DNA of 64,000 bases, taken from positions 2,038,576 to 2,102,575 of the forward strand of contig NZ_CP048877.1 in the NCBI RefSeq assembly GCF_011207455.1. Direction: 5' to 3'. Below, one piece after another: positions 2,492 to 18,274 of the stretch (positions are counted from its first letter, which is position 1; each line of letters begins with the position of its first letter). The DNA comes from Thermosulfuriphilus ammonigenes. Lineage in GTDB: Bacteria > Desulfobacterota > Thermodesulfobacteria > Thermodesulfobacteriales > ST65. The notes beneath the pieces were generated by a model, which saw only the letters and a program-made list of their open reading frames with translations, made no database searches and was not told where the DNA came from. A program made the position numbers and the translations under genes.

Positions 2492-3310
2492 ATGAGAGCC
2501 TGTTTCTGGGGGAGGGGCTGGTGGCTGATTGCCTTTTTTCTTCTGGGTCTTTTGGGGCCTCAGGAGGCAGGGGCCTACTCGCAAGGTTTTAAGGCCTCAC
2601 CAGACCAGGCCTGGAGCCTGATAGAGAGAGAACTTTCCCGTGGCGGTGGTCTTAAGTGGCACCTTATCTGTCGAGATATCTCTCTTTCCCGTTGCACTCT
2701 GGTGTCTCAAAGTGGCAGCTTTACCCCTCTGGCGACGATAGATCTCCGTTATCCGGCGGTAAGGGGCCTTAGGCAGTCTTATCTGGAGGCCAATTTACGG
2801 TACCTTCTGGCCGACAGGTGGGAGCTACTCCTTGAACTTCGCCGGGATCAGGCCCGTCTTGAAGCCGCTCGGAAGAGGGCCAGGGAGATCCTCAAAGAAC
2901 TCGGGGCCCGCGGGGATCTTCTGGTAAAGGAGCTCCCCGGGTATCTGGGAGAGGGAAAGAGACAATCCGCCCCTCAAGTGGTTTTAAAGGAGGCGGATAC
3001 CGGCCTGCGGTCTGCTTGGCGACACTCAGAGCTCCGGGGGCAGGAGTCTCTTGTGCGGACCCCGGTGGCCACTGTTAGGCCTTCCGGGGAGCCCCTGGCC
3101 TCATATAAGGCTTCCCGAGATAGAGTCAAGCCGGCAGCCCCGACCCCTTCCGCACGAGATGATTATTCCTCCCCGGAGGAATACGGTTTGCTGGGGCAAT
3201 TGCTTCTTTTTCTGGCCGGCCTTTGGGGCTGGGTTATGGATAACCTTATTTTGGTATCCGTGGTCCTGATGATCCTATCCCTTTTGATATCCATGGCTCG
3301 GAGGCTCTGA
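2492..3310 (+). CDS. uncharacterised signal-peptide protein with C-terminal membrane anchor
   Basis: Not recognised. The 272-residue product starts with a signal-peptide-like helix (WWLIAFFLLGLL, then AGA). A globular part of about 90 residues contains three cysteines, and a charged helix follows (about residues 120-150, rich in Arg/Glu/Leu, probably coiled-coil). A Pro/Ser-rich linker leads to a C-terminal transmembrane helix of about 20 residues closed by ARRL. The start at 2492 has GGGAG five bases upstream; an earlier in-frame start at 2444 lacks one. Its stop overlaps the start of the TPR lipoprotein by 1 nt (TGATG), so the two are probably made together and may act together at the periplasmic membrane face. 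Confidence 0.7.
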   Translation: MRACFWGRGWWLIAFFLLGLLGPQEAGAYSQGFKASPDQAWSLIERELSRGGGLKWHLICRDISLSRCTLVSQSGSFTPLATIDLRYPAVRGLRQSYLEANLRYLLADRWELLLELRRDQARLEAARKRAREILKELGARGDLLVKELPGYLGEGKRQSAPQVVLKEADTGLRSAWRHSELRGQESLVRTPVATVRPSGEPLASYKASRDRVKPAAPTPSARDDYSSPEEYGLLGQLLLFLAGLWGWVMDNLILVSVVLMILSLLISMARRL

Positions 3311-5304
3311 TGCGGTCTTTTCTCCTCGGGGTGCTGATTCTCCTTCTTCTCTGGGCCTGTGGTGGGGGGCCGCCGCCGGAGGTCAAACTCTCCCGGGCCG
3401 AGGCCCTGATTGAGAAGGGGGACTATGAGGCGGCCTTGGCCATTCTTTTGCCTCTCAAAGAGGTTATGGCCGATGACCCCCGGCTCTGGTATCAGCTGGG
3501 GGTGGTGGAGATCCGTCTCGGGCGTCCCTACGAGGCCCTCCGCAGTTTGGAGACGGCCCTGGAACTTGATCGCCGTGATCCCCGCATCCTGGTAAAATTG
3601 GGCTATCTTTATCTGGTTACCGGCTATTATCAAAAGGCTGAGGCCCTGGCCAAGGAGATAGAGGCCATTGATCCCGAAAACCCTTACGCCCAGCTTATCC
3701 TGGGCAACCTCAAGGCCTTCTCTGGGCAACTGACCCAGGCTGAAAGCTATTTTCGAGATGTCCTTAAGCGAAAGCCCAAGGATTTTCGCTGTTATTTGGA
3801 GCTGGGAGATTTTTATCTCTTTAGGGGAGATCTGGCCCGGGCCGAGAACTGTTATCTGAAGGCTAAAGACCTGGCCCCTGAGCGGCCGGAGGTCTATATG
3901 GCCCTGGGTAATCTCTACCGTTACAGGGGCGATTTTCAGGCCGCGGCGGCGGCCTTTAAGAAGATGATCCTCCTGGCCCCTTCGGAGAAGACCGCCCGCC
4001 GTTACCGGGCCTATCTAGCCGATTTCTATCTCCTTGCTGGCTATAAGGATCGAGCTTTTTTCATCTATGAGAAGCTCTATCAGGAAGGCGGCCCCAAAGA
4101 CTTTGACCTGGCTGTTCGTTTTGCCGAGGTGGCCCTTCATATGGGCCGGCTCGATGAGGCCAGGCAGGTAATTGAGGATCTCTCTCGTTCCTATCCCAAG
4201 AGTTTTGCGGTGGTCTATCTCAAAGGGCATCTCTGCCTCGGGGAGGCGGACTACTCAGGGGCGGTCTTTGCCTTCAGTCAGGCGGTCTCCATAAACGAGG
4301 ATGAACGGGGGCTTTACTATCTGGGCCTTTCTCAATGGTTGGCAGGCTATCACAAACAGGCCAAGGCCACCCTGGCCCGGGCCTTAGAGATAAATCCGGC
4401 ATCCTATCGGGCCAGGCTTCTTTTAGCCATCTTAGAGACGGCCGATGGCGAGAGGACTTCCCTTGCGGCTAACCTTCTTCCCCTTCTTGAAGCCCCTGAT
4501 CTGGCCAGGGAGGCCCACAGTGTGCTGGCCGTAGATCTCATCCGCCAGGGAAATTGCCCCCTGGCAGAGGCCGAAGTAGAGATGTTCTCCCGGCTATATC
4601 CTGACTCTCAGGCCGCTTATTTGCTCCGGCTGGCGTCCCTTCTGGCCTGTGGCCGGGAGCGTTTGGCCAGAGACGAGGCTATCAAGCACCACCGGCCTCC
4701 CCTGGAGGCCTTTGTCCTCTGGGCTCCGGAGAAAGCCCTGGAACTTCAGGGGCAGGACTGGCTTTCGGTGTCGCTTACGGCCTCCGGCCTTCTTGAGGCC
4801 GGGCGCCTGAGAGAGGCCGCTCTTGTCCTTAAGCTGTCCGAAGATCGCCTGCCCCTGGTCTACCTTCGGGCCCTGGTGGCCCTTTTGTCCGGTAAAAGGG
4901 CAGAGGCCGCGGCGGCCCTTCGGAGATTGATCTCCGAGGCTCCCGATTTTTTTCCGGCCCTGGCCCTTTTGGGCGATCTGGCCAGGGAGGAGGGGAACCT
5001 TGACCGGGCCATTAAATACTACCGTCAGGCCCTAAAGTTTGCCCCCCAAGAGGCCACCGTTCTCAATAACCTGGCCTGGAGCCTCCTTGAGGCCGGGGGA
5101 GACCTGGACGAGGCCCGTCTTCTGGCCGAAAAGGCCGCCTCTTGCCGTCCTCAGGATCCGCTGATTCTGGACACTCTGGGCTGGATTTATTACCACCTGG
5201 GGATGAAGGAGGCAGCCAGGAGCTATCTTCATCGGGCCCTCTCCCTGGCCCCGGATGATAAGGTCATCAAAGGCCATTTGAGACAACTTGATGGCTCCCT
5301 GTGA
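3310..5304 (+). CDS. TPR-repeat lipoprotein (PrsT-like)
   Basis: The 664-residue protein has a lipoprotein signal ending in a lipobox (LLLLWAC, lipidated Cys near residue 17). The rest is essentially tandem tetratricopeptide repeats (for example AEALIEKGDYEAALAILLP, then GRPYEALRSLETALELD), ending with the common DTLGWIYYHLGMKEAARSYL unit. Large TPR lipoproteins are regular partners of PEP-CTERM/exosortase loci (PrsT family). A PEP-CTERM gene lies 254 nt downstream, so a scaffold role in envelope assembly or polysaccharide export is a fair inference. This protein is shorter than many PrsT members. Translationally coupled to the membrane protein before it. Confidence 0.8.
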   Translation: MRSFLLGVLILLLLWACGGGPPPEVKLSRAEALIEKGDYEAALAILLPLKEVMADDPRLWYQLGVVEIRLGRPYEALRSLETALELDRRDPRILVKLGYLYLVTGYYQKAEALAKEIEAIDPENPYAQLILGNLKAFSGQLTQAESYFRDVLKRKPKDFRCYLELGDFYLFRGDLARAENCYLKAKDLAPERPEVYMALGNLYRYRGDFQAAAAAFKKMILLAPSEKTARRYRAYLADFYLLAGYKDRAFFIYEKLYQEGGPKDFDLAVRFAEVALHMGRLDEARQVIEDLSRSYPKSFAVVYLKGHLCLGEADYSGAVFAFSQAVSINEDERGLYYLGLSQWLAGYHKQAKATLARALEINPASYRARLLLAILETADGERTSLAANLLPLLEAPDLAREAHSVLAVDLIRQGNCPLAEAEVEMFSRLYPDSQAAYLLRLASLLACGRERLARDEAIKHHRPPLEAFVLWAPEKALELQGQDWLSVSLTASGLLEAGRLREAALVLKLSEDRLPLVYLRALVALLSGKRAEAAAALRRLISEAPDFFPALALLGDLAREEGNLDRAIKYYRQALKFAPQEATVLNNLAWSLLEAGGDLDEARLLAEKAASCRPQDPLILDTLGWIYYHLGMKEAARSYLHRALSLAPDDKVIKGHLRQLDGSL

Positions 5305-5382
5305 GAAGGAATTTTCTCTTTGGAAAAAAACTTCTCTTCTGGTGAACTTTTTTTCTCATTTTTCTTTGACTCTTTAAGCCAT

Positions 5383-5420
5383 CGGCCATTTTGGCCGCCA
5401 AAAAGCGGCCAAAATGGCCG
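5383..5420. repeat. perfect 16-bp inverted repeat, candidate activator site
   Basis: Arms at 5383-5398 and 5405-5420 are exact reverse complements around a 6-nt centre. Each arm is itself a small dyad, GGCC-N5-GGCC. The two dyad centres are 22 bp apart, about two helical turns, as for two dimers on one DNA face. The -24 box of the sigma-54 promoter starts seven bases downstream. It could also form a hairpin ending the TPR transcript, but no T-run follows it. Confidence 0.6.
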
Positions 5421-5426
5421 TCTTCT

Positions 5427-5443
5427 TTGGCACTCTCTTTGCT
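5427..5443 (+). promoter_or_regulatory. sigma-54 (RpoN) promoter of the PEP-CTERM gene
   Basis: TTGGCAC (5427-5433), five bases, then TTGCT (5439-5443) matches the YTGGCAC-N5-TTGCW consensus, with GG and GC exactly 10 nt apart. Transcription would start near 5454, leaving a leader of about 105 nt. Sigma-54 control through PrsK/PrsR is known for PEP-CTERM genes in some Proteobacteria. Confidence 0.85.
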
Positions 5444-5558
5444 TTATAGGGGGATATTGAAGTCGGGGGCTTAAGGGGGGTGGTAAATGGGGTAAGGGGG
5501 AGGCAAAAAGGGTTGAGACCAGAGTGACTTATATCAAAATCTAAGTAAGGAGGTTTTT

Positions 5559-6495: not shown

Positions 6496-6522
6496 AAAAA
6501 GGGGGGCTCAGCCCCCCTTTTT
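6496..6522. terminator. bidirectional intrinsic terminator
   Basis: AAAAAGGGGGGCT and AGCCCCCCTTTTT form a strong hairpin with A/T runs on both sides, between the convergent PEP-CTERM and RND genes. It overlaps the RND stop codon and should end transcription in both directions. Confidence 0.9.
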
Positions 6523-8808
6523 CTTTTGGGCCAGGATGGCCGGGAGCAAAAAGATATCCCCTAAAAGGGCGACTAACATGATCATGGCCGAGAGGAACCC
6601 AAACTGAACGGTGGGAACAAACCTGGAGGTTACCAGGATGCCGAAGGCCACAATGAGGATAACGGAGGTAACCGTCACCGCCCCTCCTTTTACGATCAGG
6701 GTTCCCAAAATGGCCTGATCCACCGAGAGGCCCGCCCGGCGAAGCATTTGATATTGATTTAAGAAGTGGATGGTATCATCCACCACAATCCCGATGGCCA
6801 CGGCGGAGATGGTGGCCGTTGAGGTGTTAAGGGGGATTCCGGCCCAGCCCATGAGACCAAAATTGGTGACAAGAGGAAGAAAGTTAGGGACCATGGCCAC
6901 CAGCCCGAGCGTCAGGGAGCGCAGGGCCAGAAATATAAAGGCGAAAACGATCCCCCCGGCCATGGTGAGGCTTTGAACCTGAGAGGAGACGATGTCCTTA
7001 ATAACCTGCGTATTGAGGTAGGTCTTTCCGGTTATTCGGACCTCGAGCCCCCGCTTTTCCGGCTCCAGACGGTGGATGAATTCGGTAAGGTCTTCGATCT
7101 CCTCTTCTAGGGCCGATGAATTGTGGACTACTGTTCGAGCCGAGAGGCGGGCCCAGCTTCGATCTTCGTCCAGAAAGTGGCTGAGTTCCGTGCCGCTGTA
7201 AAGAAGAAGGTACTGGGCCAGGAGCTCTCGACTGTGGGGAAGCCTGTAGAATCGAGGGTCATCTTCGTGGAAGGCCTGGTTCATCTGTTTGAGAAAATCA
7301 TGAGGCCCTACGACCTTGCTGAAGGCCGGCCGATTCTTGAGGAAGGCGGCGATCTCTTCCAGGAACCTTAGATTCTCTGGGTCCAGAAAGGCCTCGGGCT
7401 CTTTGGCCCGGATAGAGATCTCCAGGGTTTCGGAGCCACCCAGATTCTGATCCACGAACCTAGCCGCCACCCGTATGGGGCTTTTTTCCCGGAAGAACTC
7501 CAGCAGATTGGTCTCTGTACGGATCTGCGAGGCCCCCCAGAGAGAGATTAAAACCACAGCCAGGGTGAAGAGGATGATCCACCTCCCCCGGGTTACGGCT
7601 AGCCTGGTTAACTTTTGGGAGGCAGAGACCAGGGCCGACTCTCTCACCGGGCTATTGCCCCGGGCCGCCTCCTGGCCCAGCCAGGGCAGAAGCATGGCCA
7701 GCAACGTAAAGGTGAGGATGAACTCGATGATCATTCCCGCCGCGGCCGCCAGCCCAAAGTGTCTGATAGCCGGGATGCGGCTCGTCACCAGAGAGAGAAA
7801 TCCAGCCGCGGTGGTCAAACTGGTAAGAAGACATGGTCTCCAGGATTCACCTACGGCCTTAATCACCAGAGCGGAGAAGTTTTTCTGGGGTTTGGCCCCG
7901 GGGCGGTCGAGCTCCAGATAGAAACGGCTGGTCAGGTGGACCCCGTCGGCCAAAGAAAGGGCCATGATAAGAGGAGAAAGGATAGCCGTCATGGGGCTCA
8001 TGGCGCCCCCGACCAGGTTAAGGGCGGCCATTGTCCAGATAAGAGAAAGGGTCATAACAGCCAGAATCCCGACCACCGCCCGTATCCGGCGCAAGAAGAG
8101 ATAGAGGAGAAGGGCCATGAGGACATAAGTCAGGGGGATAAAGACGGCCAGGTCGCTGTTCATGTAGGCGGCCATCTTGACATCTATAACCGGCCATCCG
8201 GCAAGATGAAGACGAGGGGCCCCGGGAAACCTGGCCCTTATTTCCTTGATCTTTTTCTCCACCGCCTCAAGAAGCCTGGCCTCGAGGTCTTCGTCTTCAC
8301 CGTGGAAGGCCGGACGAACCAGGATCATGGTGGCCTGGCCATCAGTGGAGATCAGGTTTCCCCGGATAAGGGGGTTGGAGAGGGCCCGCTCTTTAATCCA
8401 GGCCAGCCTTTGGGCAGAGGTGGGGATTTCTTCTCCCACCAGGGGTTCGACGATGAATACCCCCTGGCCCCCACGAATATCTTCCACATTGGTCAGGCTA
8501 AGGACATCTTCTACCTCGGGGATCTCCTCCAGGGCCTCGGTGAGGTCTCTGATAAAGGCCAGGGTTTCCGGAGAGAAGAGCCTTTCGCTTTTAAAGGCTA
8601 TTCCCAGGGCGTCATCGGCGCCGAAGACCTGGCGAAATTCTTCATAGAAGAGGCGCTTTTCATCTTTGGGGACAATGGCCTCTGTGGAGGTGACTACCGG
8701 TAAAGTGAGATAAAAGTACCCAGCCGCCAGGGTGATCACGGCCAGAGCTAGAGCCAGGAGAGGCCGCCTTTGAGAGATTAGCTGGTAGTAAAAGCCTTTT
8801 GAGGACAT
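6508..8808 (-). CDS. RND-superfamily (MMPL type) exporter
   Basis: A 766-residue inner-membrane protein with the duplicated RND plan: an N-terminal helix, a large periplasmic loop (about residues 35-215), a bundle of five or six helices (AVFIPLTYVLMALLLYLF onward), then a second helix, second loop and second bundle starting near TMAGGIVFAFIFLALRSL. GIVVDDTIHFLNQY is the conserved acidic helix of the second half that relays protons. MMPL/HpnN-like members move lipids to the outer membrane. The LolA-like and DUF1302 genes upstream form the set that often travels with it, supporting a lipid-transport role. The start overlaps the ThiF-like gene by 31 nt. Confidence 0.85.
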   Translation of the reverse strand: MSSKGFYYQLISQRRPLLALALAVITLAAGYFYLTLPVVTSTEAIVPKDEKRLFYEEFRQVFGADDALGIAFKSERLFSPETLAFIRDLTEALEEIPEVEDVLSLTNVEDIRGGQGVFIVEPLVGEEIPTSAQRLAWIKERALSNPLIRGNLISTDGQATMILVRPAFHGEDEDLEARLLEAVEKKIKEIRARFPGAPRLHLAGWPVIDVKMAAYMNSDLAVFIPLTYVLMALLLYLFLRRIRAVVGILAVMTLSLIWTMAALNLVGGAMSPMTAILSPLIMALSLADGVHLTSRFYLELDRPGAKPQKNFSALVIKAVGESWRPCLLTSLTTAAGFLSLVTSRIPAIRHFGLAAAAGMIIEFILTFTLLAMLLPWLGQEAARGNSPVRESALVSASQKLTRLAVTRGRWIILFTLAVVLISLWGASQIRTETNLLEFFREKSPIRVAARFVDQNLGGSETLEISIRAKEPEAFLDPENLRFLEEIAAFLKNRPAFSKVVGPHDFLKQMNQAFHEDDPRFYRLPHSRELLAQYLLLYSGTELSHFLDEDRSWARLSARTVVHNSSALEEEIEDLTEFIHRLEPEKRGLEVRITGKTYLNTQVIKDIVSSQVQSLTMAGGIVFAFIFLALRSLTLGLVAMVPNFLPLVTNFGLMGWAGIPLNTSTATISAVAIGIVVDDTIHFLNQYQMLRRAGLSVDQAILGTLIVKGGAVTVTSVILIVAFGILVTSRFVPTVQFGFLSAMIMLVALLGDIFLLPAILAQKKKGG

Positions 8809-9725
8809 GATTCGAGGGCCTTTTTAAAGCGCCGTATAAGGAGTCGAATCATCAACCGCTGGATGGGATTGCGGTTGCCAAGGGGAAGATAGCCTCGGCG
8901 AAGCTTCATGCGGTAGAGATCAAGCTGGTGGAACCAGGGAGTCGGTTTTAGACCCGGGCGGCCGAGGATGATGCGTATGCACTCCATCGCCGCCATGGCG
9001 CTACAGAGCAGACAGGCAATGCCGCTTGAGGGACCGCGCTGGGCGGCGATATCCACGTAGGAAAGATCCATATATTTTAAGTGGGTAGGCCAGGGGGCCA
9101 GACCCACGGCAAAGGCCGCCAGTTTTTCAAGCTCACTCATTCCCTCTCGCACCCCAAAGTAACGATCAAAATCAAGCCCCCTATCCGGGGCAAAGACTAA
9201 GATGGCGCAGCTAAAGCCAAGGGGGGCGGCAGTGATGACCGGTATCCCCTTTTCTTTGGCCGCCCGATAAAGGGCCCGACGGAGATCAAAACTGAAAAAA
9301 TCAATGCCGTCGATGATTACGCTGACTCCGCTTAGAAACTCATCCAGGTTCTCTTCGCTTACTCCTTTGGGGAAGCGTTCTATGCGAAGGTAGGGATTGA
9401 TACTTAGGGCCTCTTCTACCATAACCTCAAGTTTCTCCCGGCCGGCGGTGGCCGCCTTGGCCCCATACTGGCGGTTGATGTTATGGGGCTCGAAGGTATC
9501 CAGGTCGGCCAGCTTGAAACTGCCCACTCCGCTGCGAACCAGGGCGATAAGATGCCCTCCGCCCACTCCTCCCAGCCCCGGGATGGCCACCGTGGTCTCC
9601 CGGAGGCGGGCCAGCTCCTCCGGGGTCAAAAGCCCCAGACAGCGAGAGAAGGCCACCTCCCAGAAGCCCTTGCGGTTTTCTATGCCAAAGTTTTTAAGGT
9701 TTTCTAAAAGAAAATCGTTGTCCAT
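8778..9725 (-). CDS. ThiF/E1-like adenylyltransferase family protein
   Basis: A 315-residue protein with the nucleotide-binding loop GLGGVGG at about residues 50-56, LADLDTFEPHNINRQYG (the E1/ThiF Asp and Arg-Gln region) and a Rossmann fold. Members adenylate the C-terminus of a small protein or a small acid. No ubiquitin-like or ThiS-like partner is encoded nearby, and the C-terminal part (about 230-315, basic) is not one I recognise. The 31-nt overlap with the RND gene makes coupled translation likely, so it may modify a partner or cargo of that system. The substrate is unknown; the family call is secure. Confidence 0.8.
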   Translation of the reverse strand: MDNDFLLENLKNFGIENRKGFWEVAFSRCLGLLTPEELARLRETTVAIPGLGGVGGGHLIALVRSGVGSFKLADLDTFEPHNINRQYGAKAATAGREKLEVMVEEALSINPYLRIERFPKGVSEENLDEFLSGVSVIIDGIDFFSFDLRRALYRAAKEKGIPVITAAPLGFSCAILVFAPDRGLDFDRYFGVREGMSELEKLAAFAVGLAPWPTHLKYMDLSYVDIAAQRGPSSGIACLLCSAMAAMECIRIILGRPGLKPTPWFHQLDLYRMKLRRGYLPLGNRNPIQRLMIRLLIRRFKKALESCPQKAFTTS

Positions 9726-9892
9726 CTTTTGGGCTGCTGAAAAAGACCTGGGCTTTTATAAAAAGTTTGGGAAACCTTCCCTCTAGATTTATCGGATGGC
9801 CCCAGATTTTTTTGAGCCTCTAAAAACTTTAGACGAGACGTTCAAAGGATATCGACTCTATCATTCTTTGATGACCCATTAATGGTTCTACC

Positions 9893-11257
9893 CTAAAGGA
9901 TGACTTTTAGGCCCACGTAGAAGTCGTCGTTGTTGTCGTAAAGATCAAGAAAGGTGTCTGATGGCCCGTCAATAAAATGGAAGCCCAAGAAAAGATGGAT
10001 GTTGTCTCTTACCTGATAGATGATCTCCGGGTTGAGATACCACATGCGGGTGGTAAGGCCGTAACTGGCATCAAGACGGGTCTCCAGACGGTCTTCTAAG
10101 GCGGGCCAGGAGAGGCGAAAAAAGATGGAGCTGTCCAGCTTGGGCTCAAAGAGGATTCCTTCGGACCAGGCCAGGATTCTCTGCTGAAGAAATTGGAGGT
10201 TAAGGTATAGACCTCCAGGCCAGGTTCGATCTACTCCCAGGATATAGCCCCAGGATGGCTTCCTGATACCAGTAAGATCCTCCCGAAGGAGGACCCGGTC
10301 GGTTTGATAAAGGAACTCTCCTCTTAGACCGTAGTCTCCGCGGGTGGTCTCAAACTCAAAGCCCAGAAAGCGATTGCGAGGCCGACCGATGAGAATGGTC
10401 TGGCCGCTTATGCTTATGGAAGCCATCTGGGAGAGAAGATCCGCCAGGGGAGCGGTGGGGCTGGTGAGGCGAAATCCCTTGATGGGAAAATACTTTACAA
10501 AAGGATAGGGTGAACGGCTATGGGCCTCTAGATAGCTCAGGCCAAAGTCTATCTGGGCCACTGTACCGCTGAGTTTCACTCCCCACTCTGAGCGTCTAAG
10601 GCTCCAGCCGTAATCTTCTTCTTGGGCCGAGAGTCCGGCTCCCCAGGCCTTAAGGGTGGCCGGAACCTGGGGGTTTCGGGCTATAGCCTCTTTGAGGTGA
10701 TCAAAGTTGGCCCAGTCTGTCCCGAAATGATCTCTTTCGTGGGCCTCATCTGTGGGGGAGAAGAGGGCTTCCAGGGTAAAGTTTCCTAGATAACGGCGGC
10801 AGAGGATCAAAAAGCTGGGGCGCTTTCTCTCCTCAAGACGGAGATACATGAGCTGACGGAGATCCTGGGGGTTGACATTGTCCAGGAGACTTATCTCATC
10901 GGCCTTGCCCCAGCGAACGAACTGCTTGCCTACCCGGACCTCCCAGTTGTTGGTCTGAAGGCCAAGGTAGGTCTCCCAGACCCAGTAGTCTGTCTCTTGC
11001 TCGGAGTTGTCATGGAAGGAGAGCCGATCAAACCTCAGAGAGACTTTTCCAAAAAACGGCCCCTTGCCCGGCCAGAAGAGTTCCAAGGTGGCTATCTCTC
11101 GCTCTGAGGCCCGGTCTTCTAGGGTGCGATCGTGGCTAAGATCCCAGCCTGTGCGCATCCATAGGGTGGCCTTGGTATCAACCGGAGATTCAAAGGCCAG
11201 GCTGGTGCCGGATAAAAACGGGCCTATGACCACAATAAAGAGTAAAATCAACCTCAC
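9893..11257 (-). CDS. DUF1302-type outer-membrane beta-barrel protein
   Basis: A 454-residue protein with an N-terminal signal peptide (LILLFIVVIGPFLSG, then SLA). Alternating-residue beta strands fill the rest, and it ends in a barrel-like FYVGLKVIL. WVWETYLGLQTNNWEVRVGKQ and LDNVNPQDLRQ are typical of DUF1302 proteins, which occur beside MMPL/RND exporters and LolA-like proteins in Proteobacteria. It probably serves as the outer-membrane part of that set. It lies 66 nt below the LolA-like gene and 167 nt above the ThiF-like gene, all on the same strand. Confidence 0.75.
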   Translation of the reverse strand: MRLILLFIVVIGPFLSGTSLAFESPVDTKATLWMRTGWDLSHDRTLEDRASEREIATLELFWPGKGPFFGKVSLRFDRLSFHDNSEQETDYWVWETYLGLQTNNWEVRVGKQFVRWGKADEISLLDNVNPQDLRQLMYLRLEERKRPSFLILCRRYLGNFTLEALFSPTDEAHERDHFGTDWANFDHLKEAIARNPQVPATLKAWGAGLSAQEEDYGWSLRRSEWGVKLSGTVAQIDFGLSYLEAHSRSPYPFVKYFPIKGFRLTSPTAPLADLLSQMASISISGQTILIGRPRNRFLGFEFETTRGDYGLRGEFLYQTDRVLLREDLTGIRKPSWGYILGVDRTWPGGLYLNLQFLQQRILAWSEGILFEPKLDSSIFFRLSWPALEDRLETRLDASYGLTTRMWYLNPEIIYQVRDNIHLFLGFHFIDGPSDTFLDLYDNNDDFYVGLKVIL

Positions 11258-11323
11258 CGCCCCAACCTCCCGCGCTTTTAGCGCCTTGTAGCACTTTTAG
11301 GGCGACTTTGAAAGGCCATGTCC

Positions 11324-12163
11324 CTAGGGGCGTCTTTTTACCAGTTTAAGCCCCATTTCTAGGGAGCGAACGGAGAAGAGATTGCTCTTAAGGCCCACGT
11401 TGTAGCGTATTTTCTCCACTTCTATTAGGGTGCGGTGGTCTTTTTTAAGATCTTTCATCTCGGCCTTAAGGACCGTCCAGATTCCCTGTATTTCTTCAAA
11501 GCTTAGAGCTTCGTAGACCTTCCAGAGGCGGCCCTTTTTGTCGTAGTATTCCACCCGGACGGGCAGGAAACCTTCCTGAGTTATCCACTGCACGAACCGG
11601 CTATATTTGGAATCTTTTTTCTTTTTAGGGCGGCTCTCCAGGATCCAGCAGGAGGCCTTGAGATAGGTGTCTTTCCCCAAGATTTGGTGCTCATAGCGGT
11701 CTGGATGGTGGCGCTCCATGTCTTCATAGGTGAAGTCAGAGCCCACGAAGCGCTGGAACCTGAAAGATCCGGCGATCCTGCGGGATCTCCTTAAGGCCGG
11801 TAAATAAAGGAATTGTTCCTCCTGACCGTTGTCTTTGGCCAGAGAGAGAAAACCTGTCCCGGCAATGTCCTTGGGCGAAAGGAATACAATAAGGGTCTTA
11901 AGGATCTTCCCTTCATCTCTGGTAGCTATATACATCTGACGCTTTCTTTCTTTGCCCCGCCGATCAACCAGGCTCATGGTAGCCCAGGCCTCGGAGTCCT
12001 CACCCACATTACGGTCATAGACAAATTTTGCCAGTTCATAGCCATTTTTTGGCTCTCTGGCCCGGGCCGGTGAGGGGAGCAGAAGGAAGGAAAGACCCAA
12101 AAAGCAGAGAAGCCCCACAAAGGCCCCTTTGGCTACGGAAGATAGACGGAGCTTGATGTTCAT
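11324..12163 (-). CDS. outer membrane lipoprotein-sorting (LolA-like) protein
   Basis: A 279-residue periplasmic protein with a clear signal peptide (GAFVGLLCFLGLSFLLL, then SPARA). The mature part has the LolA/LppX-like half-barrel pattern: DRRGKERKRQMY, KTLIVFLSPKDIAGTGFL, LYLPALRRSRRIAG and GSDFTYEDME, hallmarks of the family annotated as outer membrane lipoprotein-sorting protein. Such proteins carry lipid between membranes with MMPL exporters. First gene of the 12.2-6.5 kb minus-strand run and divergent from the FeeM-like gene, with a 159-nt AT-rich spacer that presumably holds both promoters. Confidence 0.85.
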   Translation of the reverse strand: MNIKLRLSSVAKGAFVGLLCFLGLSFLLLPSPARAREPKNGYELAKFVYDRNVGEDSEAWATMSLVDRRGKERKRQMYIATRDEGKILKTLIVFLSPKDIAGTGFLSLAKDNGQEEQFLYLPALRRSRRIAGSFRFQRFVGSDFTYEDMERHHPDRYEHQILGKDTYLKASCWILESRPKKKKDSKYSRFVQWITQEGFLPVRVEYYDKKGRLWKVYEALSFEEIQGIWTVLKAEMKDLKKDHRTLIEVEKIRYNVGLKSNLFSVRSLEMGLKLVKRRP

Positions 12164-12322
12164 GTCTTTTAACCCCTTGGACTATTTTTTCTTGTTTTCT
12201 GCTCAAATAGCATCTATTAGAAAACCTTAACTTGATAATTAATTGTAACCTAATCTGGTCTCTAATTTGCAAAGCTCTAATAAGCGAAGAAAATGCCAAA
12301 AACTTCTTAGGAGGCGTCCAAA

Positions 12323-13243
12323 ATGCTCAAGAATTATATCCAACAGGACGACAAAAGATATCGGCTCAAGGAGCCGTGGTCCATAAGGAGAATCCGGAAG
12401 TCACGGATGGTCAATGGCCTTAGAGAGCCGATCCAGGTAAAACTGGCCCAAGATCCGCAAACCTGGCAGGATGCCTTTGCCCTAGTCCACAAAAGATATG
12501 TGGATGTGGGGATGATCGATCCTCAGCCCTCCGGGCTCTGGATTACTCCCTTCCATGCCCTGCCTTACACCAGGGTCTGTGTGGCCTACGATACGGAGGG
12601 ACGCCCTCTGAGCACGGCCACGCTGATTATTGATTCCCCTCTGGGCGTTCCCAGCGATAAGATCTTACCCTACAAGGCCCAGATAGATAAGCTCCGGGCC
12701 AAAGGCCGCAAGATTGCGGAATTCTCATCTCTGGCGGCCATCCCCAACATAGAAGGCCGAAATGGTCTTCTTCATGTTCTGAGGCTTCTTGTTAAGTACG
12801 CCTTCTGGCAGGAAGTGGACGATCTGGTGGTCTCCGTACACTATAAACACAGCCTTTTTTATGAACGAATTCTTCTTTTTGAACGTCTTGGTGATCCGGC
12901 ACCACATCCCGTTTTCAATGATGCCCTGGCCATACTGGAGCACCTTGATCTCAGGGAAGCTCCGAAAAGATACCAAAAGGAATACGCCAATGCCTCACCA
13001 GAATGTGACCTTTACACCTTCTTTACTGCCTGCCGGAAGGGAGAGAAGGAACTTGTCCAGAGCTCCCGGGGGATGGACTGGAAGACCTTTGAGTATTTCT
13101 ATCTTAAGCTCACCGACTTTTACTGGCGCTTTGACAAAGGTGTTCGAGAATACCTACAGAAGATCTTCCCCCGACTCAGGGAGATAGAGCGTCCGAGGAG
13201 AAAATACCAGCAGATACCAACTGTAGGGCCTTACCTACATTAA
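12323..13243 (+). CDS. FeeM-like N-acyltransferase (GNAT fold)
   Basis: A 306-residue cytoplasmic protein resembling N-acyl amino acid synthases (FeeM) and the acyltransferases found with PEP-CTERM systems. Residues about 45-210 have the expected order: FALVHKRYVDVG, then GRPLSTATLIID, then the acyl-donor region KIAEFSSLAAIPN, then VVSVHYKHSLFYERIL. FeeM enzymes move a fatty acyl chain from acyl carrier protein to an amino acid. GGAGG lies eight bases before the ATG. A small membrane protein follows 21 nt later. The tail beyond residue 230 (charged, YFYLKLTDFYWRF) is unfamiliar. Confidence 0.7.
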   Translation: MLKNYIQQDDKRYRLKEPWSIRRIRKSRMVNGLREPIQVKLAQDPQTWQDAFALVHKRYVDVGMIDPQPSGLWITPFHALPYTRVCVAYDTEGRPLSTATLIIDSPLGVPSDKILPYKAQIDKLRAKGRKIAEFSSLAAIPNIEGRNGLLHVLRLLVKYAFWQEVDDLVVSVHYKHSLFYERILLFERLGDPAPHPVFNDALAILEHLDLREAPKRYQKEYANASPECDLYTFFTACRKGEKELVQSSRGMDWKTFEYFYLKLTDFYWRFDKGVREYLQKIFPRLREIERPRRKYQQIPTVGPYLH

Positions 13244-18206: not shown

Positions 18207-18274
18207 AGGCCAGCTTCTCCGGCTGGCCTGGGACTGGATTCGTTCCCATTTTCCGAGCGAAAAATGGGAACGAA
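18207..18274. repeat. hairpin plus 14-bp perfect inverted repeat before asnB
   Basis: Two structures lie in the gap. AGGCCAGC (18207-18214) pairs with GCTGGCCT (18222-18229). TTCGTTCCCATTTT (18239-18252) pairs exactly with 18261-18274 around an 8-nt loop. Neither has a T-run, so they may attenuate, bind a regulator or stabilise RNA ends rather than terminate. The asnB start is 32 nt after the second repeat. Confidence 0.6.

Follow-up and report, generated by a model that had tools for sequence, protein, structure and literature searches.

What does a perfect palindrome set directly beside a sigma-54 promoter do for the PEP-CTERM gene that follows it? The question arises in Thermosulfuriphilus ammonigenes, where a 254-bp intergenic region separates a TPR gene from a PEP-CTERM gene. 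Both lie in the window (the whole 64-kb stretch of DNA that was analysed), which is part of a complete 2.29-Mb genome. A first-pass annotation had suggested that the palindrome could be a new operator and had pointed to the PrsR/PrsK regulators. The elements of the locus, their positions and their spacing were computed from the sequence, as were the recurrence of dyads with sigma-54 sites, the family distribution and the restriction of the GGCC dyad to this one locus.

The pepA locus

The features of the locus are as follows, in window coordinates.

3310 to 5304, plus strand: TPR-repeat protein gene with TPR domains; 232 bits against TIGR02917 (PrsT), cut-off 312
5304 to 5357, no strand assigned: proposed enhancer (UAS) of three degenerate A/T-rich dyads, placed with a relatives-only motif
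5304 to 5321: dyad 1, AGAAGGAATTTTCTCTTT, centre about -141 from the predicted start site, score 12.6
5321 to 5338: dyad 2, TGGAAAAAAACTTCTCTT, centre about -124, score 14.1
5340 to 5357: dyad 3, TGGTGAACTTTTTTTCTC, centre about -105, score 10.7
5383 to 5420, plus strand: perfect hairpin with 16-bp stem and 6-nt loop, probably the intrinsic terminator that ends the TPR transcript
5421 to 5428, plus strand: T-rich tail TCTTCTTT, 6 of 8 T, its last two positions shared with the start of the -24 element
5427 to 5443, plus strand: sigma-54 -24/-12 promoter TTGGCAC-TCTCT-TTGCT, exact match to TGGCAC-N5-TTGCW, 18.6 bits
5559 to 6476, plus strand: pepA-type PEP-CTERM protein gene, 305 aa, with an AAGGAGG ribosome-binding site just 5' of the ATG
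6496 to 6522, no strand assigned: canonical terminator hairpin AAAAAGGGGGGCT/AGCCCCCCTTTTT, 3' of pepA, between convergent genes

The TPR gene is PrsT-like, with a score under the PrsT cut-off. The product of the downstream gene passes the floc_PepA model NF033554 (85.8 bits, cut-off 80), and its PEP-CTERM tail scores 25.5 against a cut-off of 16 for TIGR02595 and is above that of PF07589 as well; the closest named PepA loci are in Thermodesulfatator autotrophicus and one Thermodesulfobacteriales MAG. It is one of eight PEP-CTERM genes in the genome, which also encodes an exosortase (PF09721, 258 bits) at G000:C1:622886-623644. Adjoining pepA, the stretch 6508-13243 carries genes for an MMPL-type RND transporter, a ThiF-like enzyme, a DUF1302 protein and a FeeM N-acyl amino acid synthase-like protein, which might form a lipid-modification or export cluster tied to the exosortase system.

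The sigma-54 promoter

The exact -24/-12 promoter that the first-pass annotation placed before the PEP-CTERM gene is present at 5427-5443. The GG of the -24 and the GC of the -12 element, the spacing between them and the consensus flanks are all there, and the position of the -12 element predicts a transcription start near 5454. No other exact TGGCAC-N5-TTGC occurs in the window, and the site is one of six exact TGGCAC-N5-TTGCW sequences in the genome. The arrangement is similar at other PEP-CTERM genes: sigma-54-like sites of at least 11 bits lie upstream of five of the eight (18.6, 15.8, 15.3, 13.1 and 11.3 bits), with a background in the window of about 0.047 such sites per kb per strand, and most PEP-CTERM genes of relatives have one as well. 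This recurrence supports the earlier proposal of sigma-54 control and makes the pepA promoter very likely real. Strong matches to the sigma-54 activator domain number 17 in the genome, one of them (61.9 kb) degenerate, and these enhancer-binding-protein-like genes imply that RpoN is present.

An A/T-rich dyad array at enhancer distance

Enhancer sites of sigma-54 promoters usually lie between roughly -80 and -200. The three A/T-rich dyads at 5304-5357, overlooked in the first-pass annotation, are predicted at about -105 to -141, within this range, and the motif that locates them was learned independently, from relatives. Unsupervised palindromic expectation maximization (EM) on the PEP-CTERM upstream regions of relatives (n=17), with no spacing imposed, yielded GGGAAAAATTTTTCCC with a log-likelihood of 843, against 117 +/- 20 (maximum 167) for 20 dinucleotide shuffles. 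The relatives' loci carry the dyads as a pair 19-23 bp apart in 16 of 17 cases, with further spacings of 42-44 bp, and the promoter-proximal dyad lies a median of 81 bp upstream of the -24 element. At pepA the dyads take the degenerate form GGAAAAAAACTTCTC, about two helical turns apart, and are spaced by 17 and 19 bp, tighter than in relatives.

Dyads of the own genome are generally degenerate relative to those of relatives, and the relatives-only motif still separates its PEP-CTERM genes from other regions. Pairs in which both dyads score at least 10 and lie 17-26 bp apart occur in 5/8 PEP-CTERM upstream regions and in 1/67 intergenic regions not linked to PEP-CTERM genes (Fisher p = 1.9e-5), the latter being individually retrieved loci, not a random genome sample. 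The one non-PEP pair, at about 835 kb, also accompanies an exact sigma-54 site; the gene that follows (L007:537-1475, minus strand) encodes a trypsin-like / NAL1-like domain. Four of the eight PEP-CTERM genes depart from the pattern in part or in full at one or other element: L040 has a sigma-54 site yet only a weak pair (5.4), while L036 and L042 have neither dyads nor a sigma-54 site; L035 has dyads, yet its sigma-54 site is weak (8.4 bits). In the 64-kb window, pairs 17-24 bp apart with scores of at least 8 occur solely at 5304-5357, and none of 631 window tiles holds a pair even at a score of at least 7. The genome-wide survey combined pattern searches with the scoring of selected stretches. 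Together, these comparisons suggest that the array at 5304-5357 is a likely activator site at a conventional enhancer distance. In the main texts of the open-access library searched, no paper describing the dyad was found.

A hybrid histidine kinase-receiver gene at about 702 kb in the own genome (L170:2111-3565, minus strand) also has a dyad, of the form GGAAAAATTTTTCC, which precedes a sigma-54-like site by 77 bp.

Candidate activators

Could the dyads be the diverged binding sites of the known PrsK/PrsR system? The architecture is that of Haft et al. 2006 (PMC1569441), where some 63 nt separate the activator motif from the sigma-54 motif that follows; a PrsT-like TPR gene is adjacent to pepA, and NtrC-type response regulators are present. 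However, the curated cut-offs for the two regulators invoked by the first-pass annotation were passed in no genome searched. PrsR (TIGR02915) is absent by this measure from 21 of 21 genomes, the own best match reaching 447 bits against 502.6, and PrsK (TIGR02916) from 13 of 13, where the best match has 136 bits against 300 and covers the kinase part only. In a comparison confined to the end of the published motif, TTTACA or its complement TGTAAA is missing from all six own upstream regions and occurs in 2 of the relatives' 17. A PrsK/PrsR system with altered sites is therefore unlikely, and the pepA region looks, from its sequence, like a PrsR-independent variant of the sigma-54 control already described for such genes.

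The search for a cognate activator by phylogenetic profile led to two candidates, neither of them convincing. Relatives fall into families with (f2) and without (f3) an exosortase, as described below. The activator at 418176-419507 was rejected as cognate: its orthologs in relatives adjoin an oxidoreductase-type operon, and orthologs are present in a genome that lacks an exosortase (G016) as well. Full-length orthologs of the activator at 2108963-2110372, at about 65%, are present in 9/10 f2 genomes; its gene is closely followed by flagellar genes, however, and a receiver-less version (62-67%) is found in some f3 genomes, which leaves it only a weak candidate. Its gene (G000:C1:2108963-2110372, equivalent to L190:3964-5376) encodes a receiver-type protein in which GAFTHA replaces GAFTGA, and the genes downstream are flgB-flgC-fliE. 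For the activator at 604 kb, which is preceded by a dyad, the f2 sequences compared held no ortholog.

The GGCC palindrome as a probable terminator

The perfect 16-bp inverted repeat that the first-pass annotation saw next to the promoter is indeed there: its arms CGGCCATTTTGGCCGC (5383-5398) and GCGGCCAAAATGGCCG (5405-5420) are 100% complementary across a 6-nt loop, and the -24/-12 element follows 6 bp downstream. The two GGCC-N5-GGCC units, at 5384-5396 and 5407-5419, have centres 23 bp apart, not 22 as first given, and the second-level symmetry of this double dyad arises because GGCC is itself a palindrome. No other perfect 16-bp inverted repeat with a loop of 3-10 nt occurs in the window. 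Eleven of the 16 stem pairs are GC, the fold has an energy of -32.4 kcal/mol (z = -6.7 against shuffles), and the hairpin takes the top score among terminator-like sites between 3000 and 9000. The stretch 5383-5428 thus has the anatomy of an intrinsic terminator, a stable GC-rich hairpin and a T-rich tract 3' of a stop codon, here the TPR stop 78 nt away. Rho-independent terminators in general share the GC-rich stem, the short loop and the T-rich tail soon after a stop codon, but the stem here is unusually long at 16 bp and the tail is broken by a C. Terminator-type hairpins are found elsewhere in the pepA neighbourhood, that at 6496-6522 being an example.

Gene context points the same way. 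Among the own PEP-CTERM genes, none but pepA was observed to follow a gene on its own strand, and none but pepA has a GC-rich hairpin; in the stretches examined, the upstream gene is divergent at six of the other seven, and the seventh could not be judged. One relative's locus (L113) combines a same-strand upstream gene with a hairpin, of different sequence and placed upstream of its dyads, and no such hairpin was seen at the other relatives' loci with predicted same-strand upstream ORFs. The hairpin has no second copy in the genome, which speaks against a REP-like repeated element, and it was not recognised as a known RNA, every Rfam match being far under the gathering scores. A partial match in another genome (G013) falls within a coding stretch that, judged by eye, is apparently Lon-like. 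Elsewhere in the window, at 18239-18274, a hairpin TTCCCATTTTTCG / CGAAAAATGGGAA lies 3' of a gene and is near-identical to one in a relative (L103, G011); this one may be REP-like, since another relative has a Y1-type transposase gene (L289:4651-5625).

The 16-bp stem, the T-rich tail, the 78 nt from the TPR stop, the uniqueness of the hairpin and the same-strand upstream gene together suggest that its likeliest role is to terminate the TPR transcript and shield the sigma-54 promoter. Against this stand the T tract TCTTCTTT, which is interrupted and not a pure run, and the unusual closeness of the hairpin to the -24 element. Could the hairpin act twice, as terminator and as a DNA-level modulator (bend, spacer or repressor site) of the loop between enhancer and promoter? 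It sits exactly between the dyads and the promoter, and shorter inverted repeats occur in the same interval at two own loci, L041 (p about 0.02) and L039 (p about 0.07). However, over 23 loci the repeats in this interval are mostly at chance level, unrelated in sequence and with no conserved position seen, so a second role is quite unlikely.

Distribution across relatives

In all f2 genomes searched, the pattern RGAAAAWWTTTTCY is commoner than its reversed control (17 vs 7, 14 vs 8, 13 vs 7 and 10 vs 3, for example), and in all f3 genomes searched it is rarer (6 vs 13, 5 vs 16, 4 vs 15, and others). In the own genome, where the dyads are degenerate, pattern and control are equally frequent (3 vs 3). 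Exosortase presence matches this family split: 11/11 own and f2 genomes have the enzyme and 0/10 f3 genomes do. The same comparison bears on whether the A/T-rich dyads are activator sites at all or generic curved, UP-like or IHF-type DNA. They consist of A and T runs, and bending would result from A-tracts phased at two helical turns. However, the motif has conserved GGG/CCC flanks and dyad symmetry, its pairs are as rare in window tiles and other intergenic regions as the counts above indicate, and the pattern drops under its reversed control in exosortase-less relatives, which makes generic A/T-rich DNA an improbable explanation.

The f2 loci L173, L174, L185 and L186 have dyads and a sigma-54 site ahead of PEP-CTERM genes, and L177, L187 and L189 have them ahead of a 400-aa enhancer-binding-protein-like gene. 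The product of the latter (L177:1224-2426, minus strand, and its counterparts in L187 and L189) is an ATPase in which both GAFTGA and a helix-turn-helix are missing, and two strong dyads and a sigma-54-like site lie upstream; it is a possible feedback regulator. Its own-genome homolog (L205:2076-3260, G000:C1 about 61.6-62.8 kb) has no dyad pair upstream. On balance it seems probable that exosortase-bearing Thermodesulfobacteriales use a non-PrsR sigma-54 activator on paired GGGAAAAATTTTTCCC dyads, some of the regulons adding the GAFTGA-less, helix-turn-helix-less ATPase as a possible feedback partner.

A model for pepA control

That the GGCC double dyad is instead an operator for an activator or repressor, at about -35 to -71, has in its favour a two-level perfect symmetry, a place directly beside the -24 element and a perfection unique in the window, but is highly improbable: recurrence, whose absence the first-pass annotation itself named as a refutation, was not seen, the pair occurring at 0/22 other PEP-CTERM promoters (own genome and relatives) and nowhere else in the genome, it lies nearer the promoter than usual sigma-54 enhancers, and terminator anatomy with gene context accounts for it, the higher symmetry following from the palindromic GGCC.

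The reading preferred here, to which a probability of roughly 0.72 is given, combines a sigma-54 pepA promoter, an NtrC-type activator on the dyads at 5304-5357 and the GGCC hairpin as terminator of the TPR gene. RNA polymerase with sigma-54 would transcribe pepA from 5427-5443. An NtrC-type enhancer-binding protein would bind the tandem dyads, about 105-140 bp before the start site, and reach the polymerase by looping. The hairpin, lying between enhancer and promoter, would halt the TPR transcript ahead of the sigma-54 promoter, and by preventing read-through this termination would keep pepA silent until the activator fires. Binding, activation and termination at pepA are what we infer from the arrangement of the elements. 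If so, a palindrome that stands out next to a sigma-54 promoter can serve as a terminator, and a plainer A/T-rich dyad array can be the likelier enhancer.

Comparison with known systems

The PEP-CTERM box system of Haft et al. 2006 rests on a 17-nt motif with TTTACA as its last bases. This motif precedes a sigma-54 motif by about 63 nt, co-occurs with PrsR, PrsK and PrsT and was found in Proteobacteria only (PMC1569441). The pepA locus shares with it the single-gene PEP-CTERM unit with a long upstream region, the order of an activator motif (sometimes repeated), a spacer and a sigma-54 -24/-12 element, and the presence of an exosortase and a TPR protein. It differs in its proposed activator element, a GGGAAAAATTTTTCCC-type dyad in place of the 17-nt motif, in the lack of PrsR and PrsK at curated cut-offs, and in its host, a member of the Thermodesulfobacteriales.

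In Aquincola tertiaricarbonis, pepA is RpoN1-dependent (PMC9850573), which by analogy makes a sigma-54 promoter at the present pepA plausible. The two genes share the PepA family name, a sigma-54 promoter with a TGGCAC -24 element (mapped in A. tertiaricarbonis), a predicted upstream enhancer and a stem-loop terminator beside pepA. In A. tertiaricarbonis this terminator follows pepA, between pepA and prsT, whereas here the terminator-like hairpin precedes the promoter, downstream of the PrsT-like gene, and PrsR and PrsK were not detected. A further likeness, in proposed regulator type and in targets, is to DVUA0057 of Desulfovibrio vulgaris, a response regulator of the NtrC type whose targets include several PEP-CTERM genes that depend on sigma-54 (PMC3333781, PMC4641369). 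Since many PEP-CTERM genes lack the described motif, Haft et al. predicted further PEP-CTERM regulators and DNA motifs (PMC1569441); for one group of such genes, the dyads supply a specific motif and regulon that can be put to the test.
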